Assembly (NCBI RefSeq): GCF_000169455.1 | Contig: NZ_AAYC01000011.1 | Coordinates: forward strand, 1 to 64,000 | Reading direction: 5' to 3' | Source: Roseobacter sp. SK209-2-6 | Lineage (GTDB): Bacteria; Pseudomonadota; Alphaproteobacteria; Rhodobacterales; Rhodobacteraceae | DNA length: 64,000 nt | Position numbers and translations under genes: made by a program | Notes under the pieces: generated by a model | Seen by the model: only the letters and a program-made list of their open reading frames with translations | Databases searched by the model: none | Told to the model about the DNA's origin: nothing | Shown here: positions 141-58,072 of the stretch, piece after piece | Layout: every line of letters starts with the position of its first letter | How positions within the stretch are numbered: the first letter of the stretch is position 1

Positions 141-2915
141 TTATTCGGCTGCGATCTGGCCTTCGATCTTTTCGACCTTCACCGCTGAGAACTTGAACTC
201 GGGGATTTTGCCGTAGGGGTCCAACGCCGGGTTGGTCAGGATGTTGGCGGCAGCCTCCACATAGGCAAACGGCACAAAGACCATATCCTCGGCAATCGCC
301 CGGTCAGCACGCGCCATGATCTCGATCGAGCCGCGGCGGGTCGACAGCCGGATCATCTCGCCCGGCTCGATACCCATCAGCTTCAAGGTGCGCGGGTTGA
401 GCGAGCAGTTCGCTTCCGGCTCGACCGCATCCAGAACCTTGGACCGGCGCGTCATCGACCCGGTGTGCCAATGCTCCAACTGGCGCCCGGTGGTCATGAT
501 CATTGGATAATCTGAATCCGGAGCCTCATCCGGTGCGATTACCGAAGCAGGCGTGAAGCGCGCCCGGCCCTCGGGGCGGGGGAAGCCGTCACCAAACACA
601 ATCGCTTGACCGGGATCGGTCTCATGCAGCGACGGATAGGTAATGGTCTCAGTTTCCAGACGCTCCCAAGTGATGTTGTTCAGCGACTTCATGTTCAGCT
701 TCATCTCGGCAAAGACTTCGCTGACATCATCGTACCTCCACGGCAACCCGATACGCTGTGCCAGCTCAACGGTGACTTTCCAGTCTTCGCGTGCCTCACC
801 CGGAGGCGCCACGGCAGGACGCACCCGCTGCACCTGACGGTTGGTATTGGAGACGGTGCCGTTCTTCTCATAGAGCGCCGAGGCTGGAAGGATGATGTCG
901 GCATAGTTCGCCGTTTCGGTCAGGAAGATGTCCTGAACGATCATCAGTTCCAGCTTGGCAAAAGCGTCGCGCGCATGATCGGCATCCGGGTCGGACATCG
1001 CCGGGTTTTCACCCTGGATGTACATGCCCTTGATGTTGCCGGCATAGGCCTGATCCACGATCTCTGTCACGGTGAGGCCCTTCTCGTTCGAGAAGTCGCC
1101 GCCGCCCCAGACATCGGTGAAGCTCTTGCGGACATCATCCGAGGTCACGGTCTGATAGTCCGGCAGGAACATCGGGATGAGGCCCGCATCAGAGGCACCC
1201 TGCACGTTGTTCTGGCCGCGCAACGGGTGAAGACCCGCACCCGGCTTGCCCACGTTGCCAGTCATCAGAGCGAGCGAAATCAGGCAGCGAGAATTATCAG
1301 TGCCGTGGATGTGCTGAGACACCCCCATGCCCCAGAAGATCAAGCCCGCTTTGCCATTTGCAAAAGTGCGCGCAACCCGGCGCAACTGCTCTGGTGAGAT
1401 GCCGCAGATCTCTGACATCTTCTCTGGTGTGAACTGGGCCAGATGCTCTTTCTCCGCTTCCCAGTTCTCGGTGTACTTGTCGATGTAGGCCTGGTCGTAC
1501 AGGCCTTCTTCGACAATCACGCTCATGATTGCGTTCAGCATCGACACGTCGGCGCCAGGGCGGAACTGCACCATTTCGGTTGCAAAGCGGCGCAAGCCCA
1601 CGCCGCGCGGATCCATTACAATGAGCTTGCCGCCGCGCTTGGTGAACTGCTTGAAGTAGGTCGCCGCCACCGGGTGGTTCTCGATCGGGTTGGAGCCGAT
1701 CACGATGGCCACATCGGCGTTTTCGATCTCGTTGAAGGTCGCGGTCACAGCGCCGGAACCCACGTTTTCGATCAGCGCCGCAACCGAAGATGCGTGGCAC
1801 AGGCGGGTGCAGTGGTCGACGTTGTTATGCTTGAAGCCCTGGCGGATGAACTTCTGGAAAAGGTAAGCCTCTTCGTTGGTGCATTTCGCCGAGCCAAAGC
1901 CCGCAACCGATTTGGGATCCGCATCGCGCAGGCGCATCAGCTCTTTGCCCGCCAGATCCATCGCCTCTTCCCAGGTCGCTTCACGGAAATGGGTCGAGAG
2001 ATTGCCCGGATCGACGTTCAGGCCCTTGGCGGGTGCGTCGTCGCGGCGGATCAGCGGTTTGGTCAGGCGGTGCGGGTGGTGGATATAGTCGAAACCAAAG
2101 CGGCCTTTGACACAGAGGCGGCCTTCGTTGGCCGGGCCGTTGATACCCTCGACATGTTTGACCACGCCATCCTTGACCTTGAGCGAGACCTTACAGCCGA
2201 CGCCGCAGAAGGGGCAGACGCTTTCGGTTTCGGAATCATAGTCCTTGCTGTCGCCAACCTGTTTCTCATCCATGATGGATGCAGGCATCAGCGCCCCGGT
2301 CGGGCAGGCCTGGACGCATTCGCCGCAGGCCACACAAGAGGATTGCCCCATGGGGTCGGAAATATCAAAAACCGGATAGGCATCATGGCCGCGGCCTGCC
2401 ATGCCGATCACGTCATTGACCTGAACTTCGCGGCAGGCGCGAACACAGAGGTTGCAGGAGATGCAGGCGTCCAGGTTCACCTTCATGGCGACATGGCTGT
2501 CGTCCAAGAGCGGGATACGGCCTTCTTCCAGCTTGGGGAAGCGTGACTCCGAAACCCCGTTGAGCTCTGCCATATCCCACAAGTGCGAGGACTTATCGCG
2601 CGCCTCTTCCTGTTTGGGCTGGTCAGCAACCAGGAGCTCCATCACCATCTTACGGGCGCTGGTTGCGCGCGTATTGTTGGTGGTGACGACCATGCCTTCG
2701 CTCGGTTCACGGATACAGGAGGCTGCCAGGGTGCGCTCGCCTTCGATCTCAACCATGCAGGCGCGGCAGTTGCCGTCGGGGCGGTAGCCCGGCTGCGGCT
2801 TGTGGCAGAGATGCGGGATTTTCAGCCCACGGCCATTGGCGACTTCCCAGATGGTCAGGCCTGCCTCTGCGGTGACCTCTTTCCCGTCGAGGGTAAATGT
2901 AACGAGATTGCTCAT
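141..2915 (-). CDS. fdsA: NAD-dependent formate dehydrogenase, alpha (molybdenum) subunit
   Basis: This 924-residue catalytic subunit oxidises formate to CO2 at a bis-MGD molybdenum centre in a soluble cytoplasmic complex. Visible in order: an N-terminal [2Fe-2S] ferredoxin domain (Cys37, 50, 53, 67), two ferredoxin-type [4Fe-4S] motifs ([11 protein letters not shown] at 151-161, [11 protein letters not shown] at 194-204), and a further cluster (CPFCGVGC at 234-241, with Cys268). The molybdopterin oxidoreductase domain follows, with RLCH at 371-374, where Cys373 is the expected Mo ligand, so the enzyme is not selenocysteine-dependent. A C-terminal molydopterin-dinucleotide-binding domain completes it. 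The start has a GGAGG site. It follows the fused fdsGB gene with a gap of about 135 bases. No fdhD or fdsD follows. Confidence 0.95.
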
Positions 2916-3051
2916 GGCTCAGACCTCCGTTTTCAGCATCGAGGGCAGCGACCGGCCCGAGGGGTGGGTGCATAGCGCCCGCCCCATGGGGGCGGGTCGG
3001 GCGCTGCCCGGCGTTGCCGCCGGGCGGTTCATTTCACTAACGCTCTGCATT

Positions 3052-4740
3052 TCACACCTCATCCGGGAAGTGTTTCATGGTCAGGCGGATCGGGTTCGGC
3101 GCTGCCTGGCCGAGGCCGCAGATCGAGGCATCGACCATCGCGGTGCTCAGCTCTTCCAAGAGGCCCTGATCCCACTTCTTCTCGCTCATCAGCTTCACAG
3201 CTTTCTCGCAGCCCACCCGGCAGGGGGTGCACTGGCCGCAGCTTTCGTCTTCGAAGAAGCGCAGCATGTTTAGCGCCGCATCACGGGCCGAGTCCTGATC
3301 GGATAGGACCACCACGGCAGCGGAACCGATAAAGGTGCCATGCGGTTGCAGCGTATCAAAGTCGAGCGGCACGTCATTCATCGACGCAGGCAGCAGACCC
3401 GAGGAGGGGCCGCCCGGCTGATAGGCCTTGAAGGCATGGCCATCGAGCATACCGCCGCAGGCCTCGATGATGTCGGTGATGGTGGACCCGGCGGGCAGCA
3501 AATGCACGCCCGGATTCTTCACCCGGCCCGAGACCGAATAGCTGCGCAGCCCCTTGCGGCCATTCTTCTCAACCGAGTTCAGGCACTCGGGGCCTTCGCG
3601 GTTGATCTTGCAGACCCAATAGAGAGTCTCGACGTTGTGGACCAAGGTCGGACGACCAAAGACACCCACCTGCGCCACAAAGGGCGGACGGTGGCGCGGC
3701 TCACCGCGCTTGCCTTCGATCGATTCGATCATCGCGCTTTCTTCGCCGCAGATATAAGCGCCAGCGCCACGGCGCAGATCGATATAGCCTTCCTCGACGA
3801 TGCCTGCCGCTTCCAGTGCCTTAATTTCGGTTGCGAGGATCTTCAGCACCGCCGGGTATTCGTCGCGCATATAGATAAAGGCCTTCTCGGCCTCGACCGC
3901 CCAGGCCGCCATCAGCATGCCTTCAAGGAAGACATGCGGGGTGCGCTCCAGGTAGTAGCGGTCCTTGAAAGTACCGGGCTCGCCTTCGTCGCCATTGACG
4001 GCCAGGTAACGCGCGCCTTCGTTGGCGCGCACAAAGCCCCATTTGGTGCCGGATGGGAAGCCCGCGCCGCCGAGACCGCGCAGACCAGCCTCTTTGACCT
4101 TCGCCTGAACCGCTTCCCAGTCGCCATTTGCGCGCAGGTCTTTCAGCGTCGCATAGCCGCCTTCACCTTCATAAGCGGCGAAAGTTTCATATTCTGGCAC
4201 ATGCGCGTGGGTGTCATCCGCCGCAATCGCCGCTTCGACCTTTTCGACTGTGGCGTGGTCGATATGGTTGTGGCCGATTTCCAGCACCGGCGCGGTGTCG
4301 CAGCGGCCCATGCAGGGCGCGCGCAGGACACGCACTTGTGAGGCGTCCAGACCGTCTTCCAGCGCTTTTTGCAGCTGTTCGGCGCCTGCCAGTTCACAGG
4401 AAAGAGAATCGCAGACCCGGATGGTCAGTGCGGGCGGAGCGGTCTCGCCCTCACGCACCACATCGAAATGGGCATAAAAGCTCGCAACCTCATAGATTTC
4501 TGCCTGACCGGTGCGCAGCTCTTCAGCCAGCGCACGGATATGCGCGGCACTCAGATGCCCGTAAGCATCCTGAATCAGATGCAAAAACTCGATCAGCAGA
4601 TCCCGGTTGCGGGGCCGATCGCCCAGAAGTTCCAGAACCTCGCTATGCGCCTGGTCGTCCAGCTGGCGGCCCTTGGGGGTTTTGCGCCCCTTGCCCTTGC
4701 CGGATTTCCACACGCCCTTGCTATTGTCCAGTGGTGCCAC
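3052..4740 (-). CDS. fdsB: Formate dehydrogenase diaphorase subunit, fused FdsG-FdsB (NuoE-NuoF type)
   Basis: The protein passes electrons from FdsA to NAD+. The N-terminal part is NuoE/FdsG-like with a [2Fe-2S] set (Cys110, 115, 143, 147 from the chosen start). The remainder is NuoF/FdsB-like: a glycine-rich NADH site (GLRGLGGAGFPSG), an FMN segment (GDEGEPGTFKDRY), GAGAYICGEESA, and the [4Fe-4S] motif ESCGQCTPCRVGC with a distal Cys in SICGLG. I chose the GTG at 4740 because GGAGG (4746-4750) sits five bases upstream. An in-frame GTG at 4779 would add 13 residues but lacks such a site. FdsG and FdsB are separate genes in several characterised operons, so the fusion is a visible variant. 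Confidence 0.93.
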   Translation of the reverse strand: MAPLDNSKGVWKSGKGKGRKTPKGRQLDDQAHSEVLELLGDRPRNRDLLIEFLHLIQDAYGHLSAAHIRALAEELRTGQAEIYEVASFYAHFDVVREGETAPPALTIRVCDSLSCELAGAEQLQKALEDGLDASQVRVLRAPCMGRCDTAPVLEIGHNHIDHATVEKVEAAIAADDTHAHVPEYETFAAYEGEGGYATLKDLRANGDWEAVQAKVKEAGLRGLGGAGFPSGTKWGFVRANEGARYLAVNGDEGEPGTFKDRYYLERTPHVFLEGMLMAAWAVEAEKAFIYMRDEYPAVLKILATEIKALEAAGIVEEGYIDLRRGAGAYICGEESAMIESIEGKRGEPRHRPPFVAQVGVFGRPTLVHNVETLYWVCKINREGPECLNSVEKNGRKGLRSYSVSGRVKNPGVHLLPAGSTITDIIEACGGMLDGHAFKAYQPGGPSSGLLPASMNDVPLDFDTLQPHGTFIGSAAVVVLSDQDSARDAALNMLRFFEDESCGQCTPCRVGCEKAVKLMSEKKWDQGLLEELSTAMVDASICGLGQAAPNPIRLTMKHFPDEV

Positions 4741-4820
4741 AATGACCTCCAAAAATTCGCACGTGCTTTTGACAGGCACATGTCATCAGGAAATCATATC
4801 GTCAAATCACTTGTACGGAA

Positions 4821-46560: not shown

Positions 46561-47829
46561 CTAGTTCTCAAAGGCCTCGGGTTCCAGCTCTTGCCAGAAA
46601 GCAATAATGGCGCTGGCATTCAAGGCAGAGCGCCAGCCATGGGCGCGGAAATTCTCGCGCTCCAGATCATCTTCAAGGCCGGACATAAAGAGCTGCCGGT
46701 CGGCATCGCGCTGGGTGGGGTTTCGCCGCGAAACCAAGGTCTCGACAACTTCCAGCTGTCGCGCCCGCCCGGCCCGCTCCGCCTGGCGCGCGGCAAAGGC
46801 CTCATCCTCGCGGCGCTGCTCTTCCACCCGCAGACGCGCGGCTTCCAGTGCCTCCGGGCTGGGTTCCGGAACGGGCTTTGGCGCGGCTTGCGTCGGACGG
46901 TAGTCCTCCCGCAATGCTGCAGAGAGATAACCAACCGAGCTTTTCACCGCCCCCTGCCCCGCCATATAGTCGAGTTTCTCCTGAACATAGGCCTCGCCAT
47001 GTTCGGCAATCCACTGCCGCGCCAGCCGGTCAGAGACCCCCTGCCCCGTCAGCGCCTTGTAGACTGGAAGGTTGCGCAGCCCTTCGCTGTCATCAATCTG
47101 GAACATTGCCATCTGCGGGTTGGATTTGATCTTAAACCGGATGTCAGTGACCGAGCGGCCTTTCTTCTGGAACTCCGGTGTGATCTCGATATCGGCGCAT
47201 TTGTTCACCTCAGCCACGGCGGGTTTGATGATCTTGGCGTTGAGATGCTTGAAACTCTCGTAGTAGCTGGAGCCATCCACCCCCATCAGCTTGCGGAACA
47301 CTTCCAGGCTCCACCAGCCGGTCGAGCCGGTGCGCACAAACCGGTAGCAGTTCTCATAAAGCGCCAGCCCGTGGCCGGAACTGAAATTACGCTGGATATG
47401 GACATTGATCAGCGCATAGATCTTCGGATCGTGCAGCTTTTGCGCCAGGACCGGAGAATAGCCGTATTCGCAGACCCCGCCCTTGAGCTTGGCAAAGGAC
47501 AGCAGCGAAGAAACCCCCCATTCCTGTCGCCCCTGCTCATCCAGCATGTCCCATTCGGCAGTGGTCTCGGCCAGGGCGCGCAGACTGCTGCGGAGGGTGT
47601 CAAAATCATTGGAGTTATAGCCAACGATGGCCGCCAGGGTGCGGGCATCGATGGTGTGGCTCTGGGCCGAGGTCAGCGCGTCATAGGCATTGAGCAGGAG
47701 CACATTCGACAGCTTGCGCTGCAACAGGCTCAGCTTGCCGCTGATATGGATCGCCGCCACATTCTTCTTTACCGTCTCCCGGCGCAGCGCACCTGACAGC
47801 CGGTCCATATCAATCTGGGAATCGCTCAT
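46561..47829 (-). CDS. Plasmid replication initiator (Rep_3 superfamily, RepB-like)
   Basis: A 422-residue initiator. The N-terminal part resembles tandem winged helices of the Rep_3 (PF01051) type: LSLLQRKLSNVLLLNAYDAL at 33-52, then IVGYNSNDFDTLRSSLRAL, EWGVSSLLSFAKLKGG and ALYENCYRFV. FRKLMGVDG and the FKHLNAKIIKPAVAEVN block complete the second winged helix. The C-terminal third is a charged coiled coil. Iterons with a GGTACC core lie directly upstream. A parS-like palindrome lies within its 3' part. It is transcribed away from parAB. I do not commit to one of the named Roseobacter replicon classes. Confidence 0.9.
   Translation of the reverse strand: MSDSQIDMDRLSGALRRETVKKNVAAIHISGKLSLLQRKLSNVLLLNAYDALTSAQSHTIDARTLAAIVGYNSNDFDTLRSSLRALAETTAEWDMLDEQGRQEWGVSSLLSFAKLKGGVCEYGYSPVLAQKLHDPKIYALINVHIQRNFSSGHGLALYENCYRFVRTGSTGWWSLEVFRKLMGVDGSSYYESFKHLNAKIIKPAVAEVNKCADIEITPEFQKKGRSVTDIRFKIKSNPQMAMFQIDDSEGLRNLPVYKALTGQGVSDRLARQWIAEHGEAYVQEKLDYMAGQGAVKSSVGYLSAALREDYRPTQAAPKPVPEPSPEALEAARLRVEEQRREDEAFAARQAERAGRARQLEVVETLVSRRNPTQRDADRQLFMSGLEDDLERENFRAHGWRSALNASAIIAFWQELEPEAFEN
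46720..46734. promoter_or_regulatory. parS-like site 1
   Basis: GTTTCGCCGCGAAAC, an odd-length palindrome (arms GTTTCGC and GCGAAAC), lying inside the 3' part of the rep gene. It resembles the chromosomal parS core (TGTTTCACGTGAAACA) in its GTTTC/GAAAC arms. Confidence 0.75.
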
Positions 47830-48425: not shown

Positions 48426-49844
48426 ATGAACAGAGGCACCCAAAGCGAGGCATATCCCGTGAGCAAATCCCCACCTTCTTCATTGCCCCCTTATCTTAAC
48501 CTCGATCCAGAGGTCGCGGCGAAGAAACTTCCTGATCCTATCGGAACGGCGCGCTTTGCCAAAGCGGCGGCCTTCTGTAGCAAAGGGCGCGAAGATCTGG
48601 CGCGTCGCGGCTATGCGCCAGATGGGCAGAAGCGTCTGCGCAAGTTCTCCACTTGGGAAATCACCAAATATCTGATCCCTGTTGCTCCCGCCCATTTACG
48701 CCGGGTGCTCAAGGCAAACCCTGACCTGCCACAGGGCGAAGGTGATGGTGGGTCAAAGTGGTTTACCCTCGAAGAGGTCCTTACCCTGCGACAGCATTTT
48801 GCCAGCGAAGGGGTGAGCACCAAAGAATACCTGCCCTATCGGCCAGAGGGTCAACCGGCCAAGGTTGTAGCTGTCGCGAATTTCAAAGGTGGTGTTGGCA
48901 AGACCTCAACGGCTGCTCATCTGGCCATGTCTGCCGCGCTCGATGGTTACAAGGTGCTAGTGATCGACCTCGACAGCCAGGGTTCCATGACTTCGATCAT
49001 GGGTGGCAAGGTTGCGGATGAATGGCAGACAGTCTTTCCCTTGGTGGCTAAAGACTACGCCAAAGCGGTAACAGAAGAGAACCTGGTGCGCGCAGCAGCG
49101 GGTCAGCCGGAAATCCCCCTAGATGAAACCCTACAGGAGGCCTTGAAGACAACGCCCGAGGATGTGATCCAGAAAACCCACTGGCCCAATATTGACCTCA
49201 TCGGGGCCCAGCTGAATCTATATTGGGCCGAGTTTCAAATCCCGGTTTGGCGCATGGGGCTGCGCAGCTGGCCGCTGTGGGACGGGCTGACCAATTTCCT
49301 TGAGGATGAAAAGATCCTCGATCAGTACGACATCGTCTTTCTCGATACGCCGCCGGCGCTGGGGTATCTGACGATCAATGCTTTGGCGGCTTCGGATATC
49401 CTGTTGGTGCCACTTGGAGCCTCATATCTGGAGTTCGACAGCACCGGGCGGTTTTTTGACATGCTCTACACCACTTTCGCTTCGATCGAGGACGGTGAGA
49501 ACGCCGCACAGCGCGCGGCGGGTTTGCCGGAGATTAAGTTCGAATGGGATGTAGTGCGGGCCATTGTCACCCGGTTCGACGCCAGCCAGCAGACCGATAT
49601 GGCCAATGTGATCCAGGCCTATTTCGGCGATTTCATGAATGCCTACCGGCAGGATTACACCGCGCTGGTGGGGCAGGCCGGGGAGCAGGTCAATGGGATC
49701 TACGAGGCCGACTACCGTGACTTTAACCGCGATACCTATGTTCGGGGTCGTGAAGCCTTTGATCGGACCTATGCGGAGTTCAAGGAAGTGCTGATCGGCT
49801 GCTGGTGGCGCGATGCACAGATGGGAGAGATGCAAGATGGCTAA
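48426..49844 (+). CDS. parA: Plasmid partition ATPase ParA (with N-terminal DNA-binding region)
   Basis: A 472-residue ATPase. The first 140 residues hold a helical, probably MerR-like DNA-binding region (KFSTWEITKYLIPVAPAHLRR). A deviant Walker A (NFKGGVGKTSTAAHL) lies near residue 155. Walker A' is VIDLDSQGS, and Walker B DIVFLDTPPALG. It is the large, plasmid-type ParA (P1/RepA-like) with autoregulatory potential. The start could instead be GTG at 48459. It overlaps parB by 8 bases. Confidence 0.94.
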   Translation: MNRGTQSEAYPVSKSPPSSLPPYLNLDPEVAAKKLPDPIGTARFAKAAAFCSKGREDLARRGYAPDGQKRLRKFSTWEITKYLIPVAPAHLRRVLKANPDLPQGEGDGGSKWFTLEEVLTLRQHFASEGVSTKEYLPYRPEGQPAKVVAVANFKGGVGKTSTAAHLAMSAALDGYKVLVIDLDSQGSMTSIMGGKVADEWQTVFPLVAKDYAKAVTEENLVRAAAGQPEIPLDETLQEALKTTPEDVIQKTHWPNIDLIGAQLNLYWAEFQIPVWRMGLRSWPLWDGLTNFLEDEKILDQYDIVFLDTPPALGYLTINALAASDILLVPLGASYLEFDSTGRFFDMLYTTFASIEDGENAAQRAAGLPEIKFEWDVVRAIVTRFDASQQTDMANVIQAYFGDFMNAYRQDYTALVGQAGEQVNGIYEADYRDFNRDTYVRGREAFDRTYAEFKEVLIGCWWRDAQMGEMQDG

Positions 49845-50904
49845 ACGCAGAAGATTGATCGCCCCGGATGCAAGCGAGTTGCAGGAGCTGGAGGAAGGTT
49901 TCGCCGCGAAACCCTCGGCCAATCCCTTTGAAACCAAATCTGCGGTTCCGCCTATCGCGCAGGTCGCGGCGGAGGCGGCGAGCCTCAATAGCATGACCAA
50001 TGTCACCGACCGGGTCGCACTGGCCCAGGATCAGGGGGATGCGGCGCGTTGGCGCGAGGCCGAAGGGGCAGGGCTGGTTGCGCAGCAAATCGTATTGGCC
50101 GAGATCGACCCGGATTTCATCCGCCGTGACCGCATCAAAGAAGATCCCGAGGCGATGGAGGAACTGATCTCCTCTATTCGGGAGCATGGTCTGCGGTCCC
50201 CAATCGAAGTGACCCGAACTGAAGATGGCTATGGCCTGATCTCTGGCTATCGGCGCCTGCAGGCCTATCGTGCGCTGCAAAATGGCGGCGAGGGGTCAGA
50301 TCGAATTCCGGCGTTTGTCCGATCTGGCAACACGGGGCAGTCGGCCTATGTTTCCATGGTCGAAGAAAATGAGGTGCGCGCCAATCTCAGCCACTATGAG
50401 CGTGGACGCATTGCTGTTCTGGCGGCAGGGCAGGGGGTCTTCCCTTCGGTTGAAGAGGCGGTGAACGTTCTTTTTGCTGCGGCCTCTAAGGCGAAGCGGT
50501 CCAAGGTTCGCAGCTTTGCCGTGGTTCATGAGGCGCTGGGGGATCTGTTGCAATTTCCAACCGGATTGAGCGAAAAAGCGGGTTTAGCGCTGGCCACCGC
50601 GCTGCGTGATGGTGGCCAGGCCCGGTTGCGAAATGCCCTGGGGCAGGGGACAGCAGTGGATGCCAAGAGCGAATGGCAACTGCTCGACAAGGCTCTTAAG
50701 CAAACGGGAGCCGTACCAAAAGATCGCTCTCGTGGGGGGAGACCACAAGAGGTGACCCGGCTGCCTGCCCGCCCGCTTCCCAAAGGTGGCGCGCTGAGTG
50801 CAGAGGTCGCAGCGGATTCCACACGAATCGAGCTGAAGGGCCGTGTTCTGAACCCGGAAACTGTGGAACGCATTCTGCAAATGATAGCGCGTCAGATCGG
50901 TTAA
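49837..50904 (+). CDS. parB: Plasmid partition protein ParB
   Basis: A 355-residue centromere-binding protein. I chose the ATG at 49837 (MAKRRRLIAPDASEL), preceded by GGGAGAG. The ParB/sulfiredoxin-like CTPase domain includes IDPDFIRRDRIKEDPEAMEEL, SIREHGLRSPIEV and the GYRRLQAYRAL box. MVEENEVRANLSHYERGR follows, then a helix-turn-helix-like region and a C-terminal dimerisation tail. It overlaps parA by 8 bases. One parS-like site (49898) lies in its own codons 21-26. Confidence 0.93.
   Translation: MAKRRRLIAPDASELQELEEGFAAKPSANPFETKSAVPPIAQVAAEAASLNSMTNVTDRVALAQDQGDAARWREAEGAGLVAQQIVLAEIDPDFIRRDRIKEDPEAMEELISSIREHGLRSPIEVTRTEDGYGLISGYRRLQAYRALQNGGEGSDRIPAFVRSGNTGQSAYVSMVEENEVRANLSHYERGRIAVLAAGQGVFPSVEEAVNVLFAAASKAKRSKVRSFAVVHEALGDLLQFPTGLSEKAGLALATALRDGGQARLRNALGQGTAVDAKSEWQLLDKALKQTGAVPKDRSRGGRPQEVTRLPARPLPKGGALSAEVAADSTRIELKGRVLNPETVERILQMIARQIG
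49898..49912. promoter_or_regulatory. parS-like site 3
   Basis: GTTTCGCCGCGAAAC inside the beginning of parB (Gly-Phe-Ala-Ala-Lys-Pro codons). The same orientation of the central base as the other three copies. Confidence 0.75.
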
Positions 50905-51036: not shown

Positions 51037-52629
51037 ATGGCCGGTAAACTTCAGATCCAGCCCTGGGGCATGTTTCAGCTGAAAAGTGCTGAAGGTGTCT
51101 GCACGCCCAAAGGTATGAAGGAAAGCGGCCTTGTTGCTCTGCTGGCCTTTTCGCCGCAGATGCATCGCTCCCGTGAGTGGTTGCAAGACCGGCTGTGGTC
51201 CGACAGGACAACATCGCAAGCGCAGGGAAGTCTGCGTCGGGCCTTGTCCAACCTTCGGAAAAGCCTGGGGCCTGCGGCGGATGTTGTTGGGTCGGATCGG
51301 AACTCGATTTGGCTGGAAACCGCACAGGTGGAGGTTCAGCAAACACCTCCGCAGCCAGAGGCGGAGTTCTGCGGTTCCCTGACGATCAAAGACCCAGAGT
51401 TCGAAGATTGGCGCAGGGACCAGCAGCTCCAGCAGGACCCACCAGAGGAAGAGCTGTTTCGCATCCAGCCTTCGGCTCCGGTTCAAAGCGCGCCGCGCCT
51501 GCGGGTTCTAATCCAATCCCTGGGCGAACCTGACGACCGAATAGAGGCATTCGCGATGGAGCATCTTTCAATGCTCCTGACAAAGCGGCTGTTGACTTTG
51601 GGTGAGATTGAGATTGTCACTGAAGGAAGCGGGCAGGCCGAAGAGACCAGCGCGTTCAGCACTACAATCGAATTGCGTTCCCACGCCCTGGGCGGATGGC
51701 TGAGTATTCACCTCCGACTATTGAGCGGGGAGCACAGGAGCTGCTTTTGGGCTGACCATCTGAGCCTTGAGCTGGATATGGCGGCGCTGATGACACGGAA
51801 TGAACTGGCGCCTTTTGTAGCGCGGGCTGCAGGTGCTATTGCGCATAGGCTGCCACAACGGCAACAGAGTGATTTGCCCCGCTGTCTGCGGGTGCAACGG
51901 GCATCAGAGTTGCTTTTCACCGGCAACCGCAGCCGTATTGATCATGGCGACCTTCTGCTGGAAAAGCTGCAGGGGGAGGAAAATGATGGCATGGTTTCGG
52001 CATGGCGCTCCTTTGCAAAACTGACCCAAGCACTTGAATTTGGTGACTTTTCACCAGAAGTGACTCAGCAAGCGCTGAGCTTGGCGGATGACAGTCTGAT
52101 TGATAGCCGGTCAAATTCTGTTGTCATTGCTTTGGCGTCGATCGTTAATATGAAGCTCGGGTCCGATTTTGACTATGGCTTCTACCTGGCCAAGGAAGCG
52201 CATGGCTATTGCGGCGATGACCCCTATGCGTTGAATGCTCTGTGTCAGGCGCATTTCTTCCGCTCGGAATATGATCAGGCCTACCAGCTGTCCAAAACCG
52301 CGCGCTCTGTCGCGGCTGGGCTGCCAAACAAGTATTACTGGGATATTCAGGCCTGTCTCGCAGCCCTAGGGGTCGGCCAGTTAGAGGAAGCTCGGGATTT
52401 TGCTTGGCAAAGTCATTTGCGCTGGCCCAGTTGTCGACCGCCTCTGCGCTATCTCGTGGCACTCAGCCTTTTGCAGGGGGATTGGGACGCGGCACAAAGT
52501 TTCGCCGCGAAACTCCGTCGCCTGGAACCAGGTTTTGATTTCTCGCAATTGCTGACGGAAGACTACCCGGTGGAAACCCTGCGGCGAACCGGGATGATTT
52601 CCGAGTTGAGTGGTCTTCTGAGTAGCTAG
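51037..52629 (+). CDS. SARP-like transcriptional regulator with C-terminal TPR-type repeats
   Basis: A protein of about 530 residues. I chose the ATG at 51037 (MAGKLQIQPWGMFQL). The frame is open from an ATG at 50980 as well. The N-terminal 95 residues look like a winged-helix SARP/OmpR-type domain (SGLVALLAFSPQMHRSREWLQD, AQGSLRRALSNLRKSLG), as in bacterial transcriptional activators. A middle region is of unknown fold. Residues about 330-520 are helical repeats (ALNALCQAHFFRSEYDQAYQ, ACLAALGVGQLEEARDFAW) that look like TPRs. It is likely the activator of the divergent or downstream genes here. A parS-like palindrome lies near its 3' end. Confidence 0.75.
   Translation: MAGKLQIQPWGMFQLKSAEGVCTPKGMKESGLVALLAFSPQMHRSREWLQDRLWSDRTTSQAQGSLRRALSNLRKSLGPAADVVGSDRNSIWLETAQVEVQQTPPQPEAEFCGSLTIKDPEFEDWRRDQQLQQDPPEEELFRIQPSAPVQSAPRLRVLIQSLGEPDDRIEAFAMEHLSMLLTKRLLTLGEIEIVTEGSGQAEETSAFSTTIELRSHALGGWLSIHLRLLSGEHRSCFWADHLSLELDMAALMTRNELAPFVARAAGAIAHRLPQRQQSDLPRCLRVQRASELLFTGNRSRIDHGDLLLEKLQGEENDGMVSAWRSFAKLTQALEFGDFSPEVTQQALSLADDSLIDSRSNSVVIALASIVNMKLGSDFDYGFYLAKEAHGYCGDDPYALNALCQAHFFRSEYDQAYQLSKTARSVAAGLPNKYYWDIQACLAALGVGQLEEARDFAWQSHLRWPSCRPPLRYLVALSLLQGDWDAAQSFAAKLRRLEPGFDFSQLLTEDYPVETLRRTGMISELSGLLSS
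52499..52513. promoter_or_regulatory. parS-like site 4
   Basis: GTTTCGCCGCGAAAC inside the 3' part of the SARP-like gene (Phe-Ala-Ala-Lys codons), about 2.6 kb from the copy in parB. Confidence 0.72.
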
Positions 52630-52667
52630 CAAGTAGCACCCCCGAGCAGCCAGGATGTGAGAGATTT

Positions 52668-52712
52668 GAGAGCGAGCGGGATGCTGGAAGAGCGCACACC
52701 CCGCTCGCTCTC
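52668..52712. terminator. Bidirectional terminator-like stem-loop
   Basis: GAGAGCGAGCGGG (52668-52680) and CCCGCTCGCTCTC (52700-52712) pair perfectly over 13 bases with a 19-base loop. It lies between the convergent regulator and peptidase genes and abuts the peptidase stop codon. Confidence 0.75.
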
Positions 52713-54431
52713 TTAAGTGCTGGGAGCGGCCGCGAGGGCCTGTTTCTGCTCTATCCCAGCTTTTCGCGCAGCCAATGCCGTAGCAAAGGAGCTACCCGAA
52801 ACACGAAACCTTTGGGCACTGCCATTGCCCAGCAGGCGTAAACCCGGTGCCGCCCATCCCTGATCAACCAGTTCTCCCTGCAGATCTTCCCCGTCTGGTA
52901 GGGGGAGGCCGCTATACCAGGAGTCGCGGCAAGATCCGCCCGGATGGGGCTGATGCAGCGCTTTGACACTGACGACCCTAAGATGTTTGCTTGCGCAGAG
53001 TGTCGAAGCCGTTCCCGACTGTCGAATTGCGCTAAGATCCTGATCTTTCAGGGGTATTTCACCCCCGGATAAGCGCTCCCGATGGTGGGGGTCGACAAAT
53101 TCGGATGGGCGCACCGGGTCTTCACCAAGGAGGTGGAGGTTGCTGTCATCGCGCAGAATCCACAGAGAGGCTTCTCCCACGCCACCACTGATTGCCCTCA
53201 GGGTGATTTGCCAATCGCCCGCAGGAACGCGGGGCGCGGTTAGGTCTTTGCTGGCAGGGGCGCTACAGCTCAGCCGGAGTCTGTGGTGATTTTGGGAGGT
53301 GCTGCGCAAAAGCGCTCCGCCAATTACCCGGTCGCCAAAAAGTATTTTGCTATAGCTGCCTGGCGTCAGCTTCAGTTGCGCAACAGATCCATCAGGGGCC
53401 TGCAACTCTAGAGTCGGGGCGTCTTCGGCGGCATAGCAGATATCCAGAGAGTTGCTGCTGTGATCGCCATGGTGCAGCCGCCAGGTGATTGCCTGCTCCG
53501 ATCCGGTTTGGAGTGCGGGAAAACGCGCATGCTGGCGATCCTGACGGTGATTTCCTGAAGGGAGAAATAGCTTCACTTCAAAGCCCGGTTTGTGCCGTTC
53601 CAGGGCCTGATGCAGAAAGTCCAGACCAGGGTGACTGCGGTCATGTGGTCCGCCCAGGAATGCAAAGGGCAGCACGATATTCAGATGCGAAATCCCACTG
53701 CCTTCAAATCCTTGGATGCAGGTCTTAATAGCTTGCAGCAGCACCGCCTGCAGGCTGGCACCGGAGCGGTCAAAAACGGCTATGGCAGGCAGCTCCACCG
53801 CAAAGAGCGGTGGCGGGGCTGGCGCCGCACCCTCTGCTTCGATCAGAAGGCCTGCCATCGCAGTACCATGAGAGAACTGACCGGGTTTAAAGCCATCCTC
53901 ATAGAGGCTGCCCTCAAAGCGCTGGCCAAGGGCCTCGATTACGCGGGCCTCCCCGCCGGGGCCATCTGCCAGCGCATAAAAGGGGGCGAACTCCTCTTGG
54001 CTGAGGGACTGGCTCTCACCAGCCAAACCGAGAAAAGCGATTTCCTTGATCCGGTTGCCGCCATCGGGCAGCCGAAAGGCGGGGTTCCAAAACGCGATGC
54101 CGGTATCAATGAGAGCGGTCACAGGGCCATTGGCTACCTCAGGACCGAAACTGCTGAGGGTCATCTGTGAAAGCTCGCCATGGGGCAAAAGAAACCCTTC
54201 ACGACCGGATTCCGTGTGGGACAACATACGCGCAGGATCAGCCAGATCCTCTGCAGGGATCTTTACCGGTTCAGGCGGCTTCGAATTGCCCGGCTTCGGC
54301 TCAGGTGCCAGCAGAAACAGAGGGGGCAGATTTTGCTGTCCGGTAAGATAGGGCAAAGCTGCGGGCAGGTAATTCTCCGGGAGGGGGCTAAAATCCTGCC
54401 CCCCGGTTTGAGGTTGAAACTTGAGTGTCAT
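52713..54431 (-). CDS. Subtilisin-like (S8) serine peptidase without signal peptide
   Basis: A 572-residue subtilase. The catalytic triad is visible in order: Asp in VTALIDTGIAF (near residue 107), His in FSHGTAMAGLL, and Ser in SGSSFATALAA near the C-terminus. The oxyanion Asn is probably in FLPSGNHR. A long insert of about 200 residues, beta-rich and glycosidase-like in flavour (TWRLHHGDHSSNSLDICY, GDWQITLRAISGGVGEASLW), sits between the His and Ser regions. No signal peptide or transmembrane segment is seen, so it may be cytoplasmic or exported atypically. It follows the PAP2-like gene by 11 bases. Confidence 0.85.
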   Translation of the reverse strand: MTLKFQPQTGGQDFSPLPENYLPAALPYLTGQQNLPPLFLLAPEPKPGNSKPPEPVKIPAEDLADPARMLSHTESGREGFLLPHGELSQMTLSSFGPEVANGPVTALIDTGIAFWNPAFRLPDGGNRIKEIAFLGLAGESQSLSQEEFAPFYALADGPGGEARVIEALGQRFEGSLYEDGFKPGQFSHGTAMAGLLIEAEGAAPAPPPLFAVELPAIAVFDRSGASLQAVLLQAIKTCIQGFEGSGISHLNIVLPFAFLGGPHDRSHPGLDFLHQALERHKPGFEVKLFLPSGNHRQDRQHARFPALQTGSEQAITWRLHHGDHSSNSLDICYAAEDAPTLELQAPDGSVAQLKLTPGSYSKILFGDRVIGGALLRSTSQNHHRLRLSCSAPASKDLTAPRVPAGDWQITLRAISGGVGEASLWILRDDSNLHLLGEDPVRPSEFVDPHHRERLSGGEIPLKDQDLSAIRQSGTASTLCASKHLRVVSVKALHQPHPGGSCRDSWYSGLPLPDGEDLQGELVDQGWAAPGLRLLGNGSAQRFRVSGSSFATALAARKAGIEQKQALAAAPST

Positions 54432-54442
54432 GGCTCACCTCT

Positions 54443-55603
54443 TTACCCCAGACCGCATTCTTTCAGGACCTTACCTGCCAACCATGCCAGGGCCTGCTGT
54501 GGCAGGCCTTCACCAGTGTTGGGTTTCAGGTTGCCGGGGTGGGGGAAGCGCAACAGATCGCCCGTGAGATCTTCGATTTCCGAGTTCGGACAAAGGGTTA
54601 CCTGCACTGTCCCGTCAGATTGCGGACCCGCAGTGACCGCATCCGCATCCAGGCTGTGGTGCAGCTCGGCAAAGATGGGCTCAATCGTGCTACCGGTTCC
54701 GCCGGCCTTATCAAAGGTCCGCGACAAAAGCGTGCTGGCCAGCGCCAGCCCCAGTGTTGCACCTGCCAGGCCATCGGCAGGGTAATGCACCCCTGCAATG
54801 GCGCGGTTATCGGTTATGCGAGCGGCGATGGATTTCAGCTCGGTACTTGCTCCGTCAAAAAGAAGCGTTTCCAATACCACCGCAAGTGAGAAACTCTCTG
54901 TTGCATGACCGGAGGGGTAGGCACTATGCGCCGGTGTCTGGATGACCGGGTTGATCTCAGGTGCCAGATCCGCCGGGCGCACCAGTTGAAAATGACGCTT
55001 CACTTCGGATGTGACCTTAAAGACCGCTTTCAGAACTGCTTGCAGGTAAAGCAGCGTATAGGGATGTGTGGTCGGACCCAGATTTGTGGGCAGAGTCATG
55101 AAGCTCAGAATGTCGGTCTGTTGAAGCACAATCTCGCTCAGCCGTTCATCCCGGTGCCACTTGCGATTATGGACCTTGGCCAGCTGGCCATTCCAGAACT
55201 GCGCTACGGCCGGGTCGCTGACATCGCGGTGCAACTCGATGCTGGCGATTTCGCTGCCCGAGGCACTGACCAGCACTTTTGTGTTTTTGGCAGCAACCGT
55301 AATGTCTGCGGTGAGTGCGCTCTGGATCAGGGACATGCGGTGGCGGCTGTTCAGCCGTTCAAAATCCAGCACATGATCCGGCGTGGCTGCAATCCATTCC
55401 AGATCGTCGCTGGTTTTGGCCTGCCAGGCAGCGTTTAGGGATTTTGCAGTCGCATCCAGCGCTGCACTCAGCAACATCGAATTGGGCTGTCCCGAATGTG
55501 CCATTTCCATCGAACTATTTGAGGAATTGGAACTGTTGGAGGAGTTTGAGCTATTCGAAGAATTGGAGCTATTGGACGAGTTCGAGCTGTTTGCATGGGC
55601 CAT
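54443..55603 (-). CDS. PAP2/vanadium haloperoxidase-fold protein with (Asn-Ser-Ser)9 N-terminus
   Basis: A 387-residue protein starting at the ATG at 55603, which follows GGGAGG. Residues 1-35 are a run of nine NSS triplets between MAHA and MEMAH. The rest has the PAP2/vanadium-chloroperoxidase motif order: KRHFQLVRP (Lys-x6-Arg-Pro), then PSGHATES (acid base His), and NRAIAGVHYPADG (Arg-x5-His-x3-Asp). The length and absence of membrane helices fit the soluble vanadium-haloperoxidase-like group better than lipid phosphatases. Substrate unknown. It leads the subtilase gene and is divergent from an unknown membrane protein gene. Confidence 0.82.
   Translation of the reverse strand: MAHANSSNSSNSSNSSNSSNSSNSSNSSNSSMEMAHSGQPNSMLLSAALDATAKSLNAAWQAKTSDDLEWIAATPDHVLDFERLNSRHRMSLIQSALTADITVAAKNTKVLVSASGSEIASIELHRDVSDPAVAQFWNGQLAKVHNRKWHRDERLSEIVLQQTDILSFMTLPTNLGPTTHPYTLLYLQAVLKAVFKVTSEVKRHFQLVRPADLAPEINPVIQTPAHSAYPSGHATESFSLAVVLETLLFDGASTELKSIAARITDNRAIAGVHYPADGLAGATLGLALASTLLSRTFDKAGGTGSTIEPIFAELHHSLDADAVTAGPQSDGTVQVTLCPNSEIEDLTGDLLRFPHPGNLKPNTGEGLPQQALAWLAGKVLKECGLG
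55511..55591 (-). repeat. Nine tandem 9-base units coding Asn-Ser-Ser
   Basis: Eighty-one bases code nine NSS repeats. The units use different Ser codons (AGC, TCG, TCC, TCA, TCT, AGT), so the repeat is kept at the protein level rather than as fresh slippage. Gain or loss of units would remain in frame. Confidence 0.85.
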
Positions 55604-55903
55604 TCGGCATCCTCCCTTGGTTATGCTGAGTCTACAGATTCCAGTTTTTCGATGAAGGGTTTTGAAATCACGCAAAAATCACGCGACTGGCGCATCCTGT
55701 TTCCGAAAAGCCCCTGTTGTGCGCAATGGCAACGCATTCGAGTGCATTAAGGGGACGCAAATGAGGTGAGCCGGGGGTCCTGATGGCTGTCCCTATCCAG
55801 AAGGCAAACTACCAGCGCTACAGAGCGCTTTTTTCGGTCTGCTGCGGCAAATCCGCAGCGGGTAGAAACTGCCCATCTAGCGGATCGCAAGGAGGGTAGG
55901 TGT
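55604..55903. other. Divergent promoter region with tandem hairpins
   Basis: About 300 bases between divergent genes. On the plus strand AGCGCT (55814-55819) pairs with AGCGCT (55824-55829) followed by a T-run (55828-55834), a terminator-like structure. GCTGCGG (55841-55847) pairs with CCGCAGC (55853-55859) just after. A 38-codon open frame (55783-55899) overlaps both. These look like a regulated leader for the next gene, but no known leader class was recognised. Confidence 0.5.
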
Positions 55904-57289
55904 ATGAGTATTTCTTACTTCGACCCAGAAATTGCGAAACTTCTTTCGGCAATGCGATATGGCCCCGGTGGGAGCATGTTGCGCAGTGGCTATCTGGAAG
56001 AATGCCTAAGCTTTTTGAAGCAAACGCGTGGGAACGCGCAGCGACGGGCCTGGCTCAGGGCGGAACTGGCCGAGGCCAAGCGCAGTGAGGTCTCAACGGC
56101 GCGGCGATTGGCAGAGGTTCTGGGGAGAAGGATCCGAAAACGGGACCGTGAATACTGCAAGCAGCTTGTCGAGACGCGTCGCATTTTCTTTCTTGAACCC
56201 GCAGAGCCAAAGAAGGGGCAGAACCCAAGTTCTTTACGGATGTCACATCTGCGCTACGCGAGACTTTGTAGCCAGGATTTGAGAGCCGCAATCTCAACGG
56301 TTTTGTACTCCATCCGGAATTCAGGCAGGAACGAAAGTTCGCGCAAACCCAGAGAACGGCTAAAAGAAGAGATACTGGCACTTGTACCTCCGGCAAAATC
56401 TCTCCTGAGGCGCATGCAACTGGCGCGAGCTGAACTCACCAAAGCGCGAGAGGGCATTCAACAGCTGCAAAACGCGCTTCAGGCCTGTCAGCAAGCGCGC
56501 GTGTCCGTCGCAGAGGCTGAAACCTGTCACCGGCTTCAGACCAACCTCGAGGCTATGACGCTCATTCTGGACCGTTATGAACATAGTTTGGGGCCGGAAC
56601 TGGATGAGTTTTGTCACGAAGGAAATCTATCTGATTTCGCCCAAGATCTGGTAAAGGGCCAACAGACCCAGGACCTGAAACCAAAAGCCTGGAAGGTCAT
56701 TGGAGCCGGTCTCTGCGGCATGGGGGCGACAGCTATGCTATTGGCTGGCCCAGACAAGTTGTCACAATATGGCCAGCTGGCGGGATGGGGGGCGGTCTCT
56801 GTCTTTGCAGCTCTGTTCTTTGCGGTGCTCTGCAAAATGCGGTTTTTTCATAATGGGCAAACACAGCTGCGCCAGCGCAGATTGGCCGCGCTGACCGCGC
56901 TTTTTGAACTACCGGCGTTAGAAGGGGCTACTTCAGACGTTGGGCGCCAGATTTTGCACCTGAAAGCACTGCGATGGAGGCATTTAAGAGAGTTGCCCAG
57001 TTTAATGAGCCTGCAAAGAGAACCAATGAGTTTTGATTTTCCAAGGTTTGATTTGTACCAGGTTTCATCTCCGTCGGGTGCCTTTGCAGGTTCGGGCGCA
57101 ATGTCGGGCGCGATGCCTGTACTGTGCGCCACGGGGGAGCGGGCGAGGGGCAAAAGCAATGCGGCCCTCCAAATCCCGCCACCCCAAGCCCCCCATCGAT
57201 TTGCAGCCGTCAGTTCCTTTGCGGAAAACGCGCTGTGCCCAGAGAAGACGCTAAAGGAGCCGCCAATTGAAATGAAAGAGAGTTCATAA
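55904..57289 (+). CDS. Unknown coiled-coil membrane protein
   Basis: I do not recognise this 461-residue protein. It has a strong GGAGGG site before the ATG. Residues about 40-250 are charged and helical, with heptad-like stretches (RRAWLRAELAEAKRSEVSTARR, LTKAREGIQQLQNALQACQQ). Two hydrophobic segments follow, about 265-285 (IGAGLCGMGATAMLLAG) and 295-315 (AGWGAVSVFAALFFAVL), forming a hairpin. The C-terminal 130 residues are soluble and Pro/Ala/Ser-rich at the end. It is divergent from the PAP2-like and subtilase genes and upstream of a second unknown gene. Confidence 0.65.
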   Translation: MSISYFDPEIAKLLSAMRYGPGGSMLRSGYLEECLSFLKQTRGNAQRRAWLRAELAEAKRSEVSTARRLAEVLGRRIRKRDREYCKQLVETRRIFFLEPAEPKKGQNPSSLRMSHLRYARLCSQDLRAAISTVLYSIRNSGRNESSRKPRERLKEEILALVPPAKSLLRRMQLARAELTKAREGIQQLQNALQACQQARVSVAEAETCHRLQTNLEAMTLILDRYEHSLGPELDEFCHEGNLSDFAQDLVKGQQTQDLKPKAWKVIGAGLCGMGATAMLLAGPDKLSQYGQLAGWGAVSVFAALFFAVLCKMRFFHNGQTQLRQRRLAALTALFELPALEGATSDVGRQILHLKALRWRHLRELPSLMSLQREPMSFDFPRFDLYQVSSPSGAFAGSGAMSGAMPVLCATGERARGKSNAALQIPPPQAPHRFAAVSSFAENALCPEKTLKEPPIEMKESS

Positions 57290-57308
57290 CATATGTTGCA
57301 AGCTATAG

Positions 57309-57333
57309 GGCGAGCCCCGGTTCCAGGCTCGCC
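57309..57333 (+). terminator. Small stem-loop between the two unknown genes
   Basis: GGCGAGCC (57309-57316) pairs with GGCTCGCC (57326-57333), with a 9-base loop and no T-run. It may tune translation or stability of the downstream message. Confidence 0.4.
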
Positions 57334-57349
57334 AAAGGAATTCTGCTGA

Positions 57350-58072
57350 ATGTCGGTACTTGTTCAATCCGGTAGGTTGCAAAACCTACCCGTGGCGACG
57401 CGGGCAGAATTGGATGCTGCGCTGGCGCTGATTCAGGTTGGCATAGCGGAAACGCTGCGCGCTTCGAGTATTGAGATTGGCCATCATTCGAGGCGGATGC
57501 GCCGTGCGCTTGCACCGCGGGACAGTGTGCGCTCCCAATTGGTTCAAGATCTTCAGGCCGCCCGCGCAGCCAGCGGGGGAAGCCTGCATCTGGCAACCGC
57601 CCGCGCCTTGGAAAGCGGCTCTGACTTGTTGATGGCCCTAGCGGTGCAACCCGGAAACCCGACGCTTGTGGCGGTTCCCACGGGTGCGGATTTCTGTATT
57701 GATACCGGGCAATTGGTGGTACAGGGCATCACCGCAGGTAGTGGTGAAAAACAGATAGAGGCGGCCTGGATCCTATTCGAAGGGCGCGCCGCAGTTTTTG
57801 AAACGGTACATCGCAACGGGGCACCAGTCTTCTCGCAGCGACGCTTTGCTTTGGCGCGCTGTCTGGGGGATACGCTTTTGGAATTCGGTGGCTCCACACG
57901 CGACGAAACCAGGCTTAAAGCGTGGCTCCAAGACCTCGAGAGAGCGGCGATGGCAATAAGCCTTGATGGTGCCGGCATGCCGGGAGACCCCGAACAGATG
58001 CGCAGATGGATCCTGACTCATCTGCGCACCACGGCGCAATTCCTGGAACGGTTGATACAGGAGCCTGCCTAG
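57350..58072 (+). CDS. Unknown soluble protein
   Basis: I do not recognise this 240-residue protein. It has no signal peptide or membrane segment. It is mostly helical at the start (QNLPVATRAELDAALALIQVGI) and end (LKAWLQDLERAAMAISLDGA, LRTTAQFLERLIQE) with a central beta-containing region (LVAVPTGADFCIDTGQLVV). It follows the coiled-coil membrane gene by 60 bases in the same direction, so it is likely part of the same operon. It converges with the transglycosylase gene. Confidence 0.6.
   Translation: MSVLVQSGRLQNLPVATRAELDAALALIQVGIAETLRASSIEIGHHSRRMRRALAPRDSVRSQLVQDLQAARAASGGSLHLATARALESGSDLLMALAVQPGNPTLVAVPTGADFCIDTGQLVVQGITAGSGEKQIEAAWILFEGRAAVFETVHRNGAPVFSQRRFALARCLGDTLLEFGGSTRDETRLKAWLQDLERAAMAISLDGAGMPGDPEQMRRWILTHLRTTAQFLERLIQEPA

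Follow-up and report, generated by a model that had tools for sequence, protein, structure and literature searches.

The window analysed here is a 64,000-nt stretch (positions 1 to 64,000) of contig NZ_AAYC01000011.1 of Roseobacter sp. SK209-2-6; the contig measures 172.5 kb in total, and the module described below adjoins repA/repB-like partition genes. All five open reading frames that the initial annotation had combined into one candidate system were found where it had placed them, from the regulator start at 51037 to the last stop at 58072, in the order regulator (+), protease (−), PAP2 enzyme (−), coiled-coil membrane protein (+) and unknown protein (+). The features are as follows:

48426..50904 (+): repA/repB-like partition genes beside the module, context only
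51037..52629 (+): TPR regulator of 530 aa with SARP-like winged-helix N-terminus and TPR-like C-terminal region; homologue at 118/124 loci
52497..52514 (no strand): parS-like palindrome AAGTTTCGCCGCGAAACT within the regulator gene, belonging with the repA/repB-like partition genes and not with the module
52668..52712 (no strand): 16-bp inverted repeat where the 3' ends of the regulator and protease genes face each other, putatively terminator-like
52713..54431 (−): S8 subtilase with Csp-like fold and beta-rich insert, without apparent signal peptide; catalytic D109, H188, N294, S548
54443..55603 (−): soluble PAP2/vanadium-haloperoxidase-fold enzyme; Pfam PF01569 match, intact motif residues
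55511..55591 (−): N-terminal peptide array (NSS)x9 encoded by nine 9-bp units, the synonymous codons of which are scrambled; disordered by prediction
55904..57289 (+): coiled-coil membrane protein (P0004), an orphan outside the module
57350..58072 (+): unknown soluble protein (P0005), a near-orphan outside the module

The PAP2 gene starts at ATG 55603, preceded by a Shine-Dalgarno-like GGGAGG, and is separated by 11 bp from the protease gene, which follows it on the same strand; therefore, the two are probably co-transcribed. The regulator gene converges on this pair across the 16-bp inverted repeat. The parS copy previously noticed within the regulator gene was recovered as an 18-nt palindrome at 52497-52514. 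It belongs to a family with four copies in the window (at 46718, 48301, 49896 and 52497), and this palindrome, GGTTTCGCCGCGAAACC, whose copies surround the repA/repB-like genes, is likely the plasmid centromere. Comparison with Rfam gave no match.

To delimit the module, family HMMs for regulator, PAP2 and S8 were run over 124 fetched loci. All three genes occurred together at 118/124 loci, which rules out a chance neighbourhood, and an S8 gene was present at 121/121 PAP2 loci. The loci had been retrieved in two independent directions with five genomes common to both sets: PAP2 was found at 33 of the 36 loci retrieved via the protease, and the protease at all 80 loci retrieved via PAP2, which had been fetched from a scan of GTDB species. 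This PAP2-profile scan yielded at least 593 pattern hits, at least 585 of them confirmed, and the protease search among family-level genomes was positive in 35 of 298. Furthermore, tblastn against plasmids identified adjacent PAP2 and S8 genes with a SARP, TPR or wHTH regulator in Paracoccus, Phaeobacter, Pontibrevibacter and Bosea. The distribution is patchy and often plasmid-borne; relatives of the window genome in the collections searched are mostly Rhodobacterales. Co-occurrence, which had been suggested as a check of the proposed five-gene system, was thus found for three genes and failed for the other two. Neither P0004 nor P0005 had a homologue at any fetched locus or a match in 72,556 plasmids, and 60 related genomes gave one weak partial match only; a five-gene system is therefore ruled out. 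The genes of this near-orphan pair (55904-58072) are 60 bp apart. Regulator, PAP2 enzyme and intracellular peptidase apparently constitute a widespread, hitherto undescribed bacterial system.

The PAP2 protein matches PF01569 (E=1.2e-10) and retains the motif residues K202, R209, H226, S231-G232-H233, R267, H273 and D277, in agreement with its earlier description as a PAP2-like enzyme of the haloperoxidase fold. Among 96 aligned loci, the catalytic K/R/H/H/R/H/D are invariant or nearly so, but conservation at N266, R267 and H273 is partly by construction because these residues are included in the motif with which some PAP2 loci were retrieved. Profile and fold searches placed a class A acid phosphatase (PDB 7f17) first (E=7e-22) and vanadium-dependent bromoperoxidases next (1e-11), and these enzymes have the active-site motifs in common with the module PAP2. 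Seven residues ahead of the PSGH histidine lies a further histidine that aligns with bromoperoxidase 1qi9 PTHPSYPSGHAT. The enzyme has all vanadate-binding residues and this bromoperoxidase-type histidine; most of these residues, however, also occur in acid phosphatases, which obtain the better scores. Phosphatase and haloperoxidase chemistry are indistinguishable here. In contrast to 7f17 and 1qi9, the module PAP2 carries an N-terminal peptide array and has conserved peptidase and regulator partners. In the structural model (pTM 0.79), the array is disordered, with pLDDT <50 for residues 1-37.

The protease had no Pfam match; however, its assignment as a subtilase was corroborated by the catalytic D109/H188/N294/S548 (Asp-His-Ser triad plus oxyanion Asn), identical in 96/96 aligned homologues, and by an AF2 model (pTM 0.91) with a subtilase fold. 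The best structural matches of this model were Csp subtilases (E=2.6e-18, TMq 0.54). The Csp germination subtilases CspA, CspB and CspC (PDB 4i0w, 9pr9, 6mw4) likewise possess an intact catalytic quartet and a beta-rich insert, but share only 15% identity with the window protease, are spore proteins of Clostridia and have no association with PAP2 or with TPR regulators. An N-terminal hydrophobic segment or signal sequence was found in none of 129 PAP2 proteins and none of 127 proteases, consistent with the cytoplasmic appearance of the subtilase noted before.

The description of the regulator as SARP-like held in part. Its N-terminus resembles the winged helix PF00486 common to SARP regulators, although weakly and below the cut-off (E=0.019), whereas a Phaeobacter relative matches strongly (E=4.6e-14), and plasmid relatives are annotated as SARP or wHTH. 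The BTAD domain of SARP regulators, by contrast, found no match in the window protein, and its TPR signal, taken alone, is weak. BTAD and TPR are both present in the regulator of a relative that accompanies a C1 peptidase (locus L171), while the regulators tested beside A4/G1 peptidases (see below) carry TPRs and, instead of a BTAD, a nucleotide-cyclase domain at the N-terminus.

In the alignment of PAP2 homologues, each protein starts with a short tandem repeat, the unit of which differs. The NSS repeat mentioned in the initial annotation is real, but the tail it forms, (NSS)x9, is an N-terminal one, and neither the hypervariability of the array nor the exchange of the protease had been recognized. 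Close to their N-terminus, 116/121 PAP2 proteins carry a short tandem array without any imperfect unit, with 72 distinct units (93 arrays have units of 3 residues, 18 of 4 and a few of 2, 5 or 6) and copy numbers from 3 to 20 (median about 9). Units such as NSS, GHE, ENW, GRS, AVE and TPH are chemically very diverse, mostly composed of Gly/Ser/Asn/Gln and never containing Cys. Of the five exceptions, L034, L044, L062 and L138 mostly look broken or mis-called, and L067 is degenerate. Across non-redundant loci, the unit is reproduced without error in 1,047 of 1,057 interior copies and at 3,356 of 3,366 residues (99.7%). Phaeobacter strains have the unit NSF in common, in 4 to 7 copies, and only the copy number varies. 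Other open reading frames at these loci contained no tandem repeats of this kind, save one unrelated AAPAKK protein in L150. As no further (NSS)n was found elsewhere in the window genome, a second copy of the same repeat is ruled out as partner of the array. Three arrays are mixed and possibly represent unit changes in progress: NAH followed by TAQ (L031), ENH with ENW (L084) and TAM broken by SGS (L235).

The codons of the arrays tell a different story from the residues. Codon identity between adjacent units was 0.289, vs 0.419 expected from the codon use of the same loci, and reached 0.34-0.42 at lags 2-12. Adjacent units were less alike in their codons than distant ones at 95 loci and more alike at 19 (p=2e-13). 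DNA slippage or a microsatellite origin of the current arrays is thereby ruled out, the longer lags being near expectation. In homologue pairs with the same unit, 137 of 368 array codons differed synonymously and no amino acid was changed, a result conditional on the choice of pairs and runs for a shared unit; the rest of PAP2 was changed at 914 of 4,699 positions in these pairs. A neutral low-complexity linker is disfavoured by this lack of amino acid change, with the same proviso. The near-exact residues together with scrambled codons argue for protein-level selection on the exact peptide, and we infer that the peptide is under purifying selection and that slippage-prone identical neighbours have been lost. 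The scrambled codons resemble those a gene designer would choose to stabilise a repeat.

The unit is shared by 12/12 pairs with a PAP2-domain identity of at least 90%, by 63% at 70-90%, 11% at 50-70%, 3% at 40-50% and 0.5% at 30-40%. Whole arrays switch together: for instance, three Hydrogenophaga records that are 84-86% identical carry GGTS, GGIS and GGVS. In the sequences compared, the identity of the array peptide is one that turns over between species and is exact within each protein. This makes the array an unusual evolutionary object, an exact amino acid repeat whose unit changes almost freely from species to species, reminiscent of an identity tag or a lock.

Unit distance tracks protease distance when PAP2 distance is controlled for (partial Mantel r=0.28, p=0.002), and weakly so among 3-mer units only (r=0.10, p=0.008), although Mantel tests are lenient and inflate significance. 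With the protease controlled for, unit distance correlated neither with PAP2 distance nor with regulator TPR distance (r=-0.01 for the regulator), and none of the protease segments tested singly against the unit was decisively prominent. Tail charge correlated with neither protease nor regulator charge, so that no electrostatic fit of the tail to either protein was found; it is offset by the charge of the PAP2 domain (phylogenetic contrasts, r=-0.36), hinting that the tail may touch its own enzyme, but simple charge balance also fits. Own-unit peptides were not enriched within protease or regulator, so that a copy of the unit inside either one was rejected as well.

The peptidase itself is exchangeable. 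Five congeners combine the regulator and a PAP2 with a DGAV array with a papain-like C1 peptidase instead of S8. Near one of these C1-type versions, L171 contains at 2419-4792 (+) a Cys-rich small protein and two open reading frames that by eye resemble DUF692 and DUF2063, a bufferin-like set. More distant alphaproteobacteria have an eqolisin-type A4/G1 peptidase as third gene (L207, L209, L210 and L211 by Pfam, L233 by alignment), together with NTG, NAG or NTS arrays, and L208 combines a DAR array with a different S8 protein upstream. The lineages with a non-S8 peptidase are few. Wherever the genes around a PAP2 with an array were inspected, the peptidase was swapped but never absent. Constant across lineages are the array, the PAP2 enzyme, the TPR protein and some peptidase. 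That the peptidase class is exchanged while array, PAP2 and TPR regulator persist points to proteolysis as an apparently essential element.

We tentatively propose that the peptidase reads or trims the tail of its own PAP2 protein and thereby switches the enzyme. The partner peptidase would recognise and cut the array as its substrate; any unit could work once the peptidase has adapted to it, and the units would be identical within one protein because each has to fit the same binding site. Trimming or binding of the tail would change the state of PAP2 (activity, assembly or lifetime), and expression of the PAP2-peptidase pair would be under the regulator's control. If every unit is read at a single binding site of a single partner, and this partner co-evolves with the unit, one would expect just such a tail, exact within a protein and arbitrary between species. 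Among possible readers, the peptidase comes first: it accompanies the array in every case, it is not tied to one catalytic class, and its distance correlates with unit distance beyond PAP2 distance. However, units as diverse as GRS, AVE, ENW and TPH demand a very adaptable peptidase, which counts against this model. On this tentative view, the module would be an intracellular switch in which a hypervariable, internally uniform array is read by a dedicated peptidase of interchangeable class, a natural and evolvable barcode-protease pairing that controls a PAP2/haloperoxidase enzyme.

Alternatively, low complexity itself may matter: AAA+ unfoldases could slip on an exact-repeat tail, or house-keeping proteases could fail to attack it, with PAP2 spared or part-processed and the dedicated peptidase acting elsewhere. 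Such tails have been proposed to favour slippage on AAA+ proteases, and polyG shortens ClpX retention (PMC9531181). This would account for the arbitrary unit and suits the predicted disorder of the tail, but glycine-alanine repeats failed to promote release (PMC9531181), low complexity does not need a periodicity that is 99.7% exact, and the constant peptidase partner is left unaccounted for; we regard this explanation as unlikely. A TPR regulator, a protease and a multi-copy hypervariable peptide also recall RRNPPA quorum-sensing systems, in which tandemly duplicated propeptides are matured by extracellular proteases (PMC11343458). By analogy, the peptidase would free array peptides that are bound by the TPR domain of the regulator, the units varying like pheromone types. 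The module differs in that 3-4-residue units in up to 20 copies sit on a soluble enzyme, the array carrier being apparently catalytically intact. The exported propeptide of RRNPPA systems has no counterpart either, since no PAP2 protein has an N-terminal hydrophobic segment and export signals are not apparent (PAP2 0/129, protease 0/127). Regulator TPR distance, moreover, does not follow the unit once protease distance is controlled for (r=-0.01), and signalling of this kind is quite unlikely.

The rapid turnover of the unit between species (from 12/12 at >=90% identity down to 0.5% at 30-40%) and the patchy, often plasmid-borne distribution could also speak for a polymorphic self/non-self tag or a toxin-restraint pair, with a harmful PAP2 and a cognate peptidase that controls only the enzyme with its own tag. 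With neither a delivery module nor a toxin annotation, and with a unit that is constant within Phaeobacter strains while copy number alone varies, we give this idea little credence. Finally, a conserved enzyme body with a VHPO-like active site, a hypervariable repeated peptide and a peptidase might be read as a multi-core RiPP-like precursor that is joined to the enzyme modifying it and set free by the peptidase. This is highly improbable, as the cores would lack spacers, the units consist mostly of Gly/Ser/Asn/Gln and never include Cys, and annotated plasmid neighbourhoods showed no recurring transporter or biosynthetic gene.

The claim that the combination matches no known system was borne out: the anti-phage defence models of PADLOC gave no meaningful match for the three module genes or for the relatives tried from L039 and L061, NCBIfam gave weak sub-threshold matches only, and no description of the gene combination was found in open-licence PMC literature. 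The defence-like or peptide-modifying role suggested in the initial annotation is a candidate function. Each family by itself is known, but apparently neither the module nor its hypervariable exact arrays have been described. Hundreds of genomes apparently carry it, as judged from at least 585 PAP2 relatives in one species-level scan and the presence of the protease at 80/80 inspected loci. How tags and proteases co-evolve, how selection acts on repetitive sequence and how proteolysis works as a switch inside cells thereby become testable questions, e.g., in laboratory strains of Phaeobacter, and if the peptidases truly read the tails, the module would provide a large natural set of matched peptide-protease pairs.

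Two individual copies of the module are decayed: in L044 (G216), the protease is split over two frames and PAP2 lacks an array, and in L034, on a Parasedimentitalea marina plasmid, PAP2 is split into two open reading frames. Two genomes, G297 and G251, contain two module PAP2 genes each, and the two arrays of G297 differ (NAE vs GGF; L212, L213). In L127, a record named Enemella evansiae (an actinobacterium), the copy is alphaproteobacterial-like, with an NSQ array and 69% identity to the Mameliella copy, suggesting transfer or contamination. On a Paracoccus zhejiangensis plasmid (L032), a caspase-family gene and a T6SS TssH gene are located near the module.
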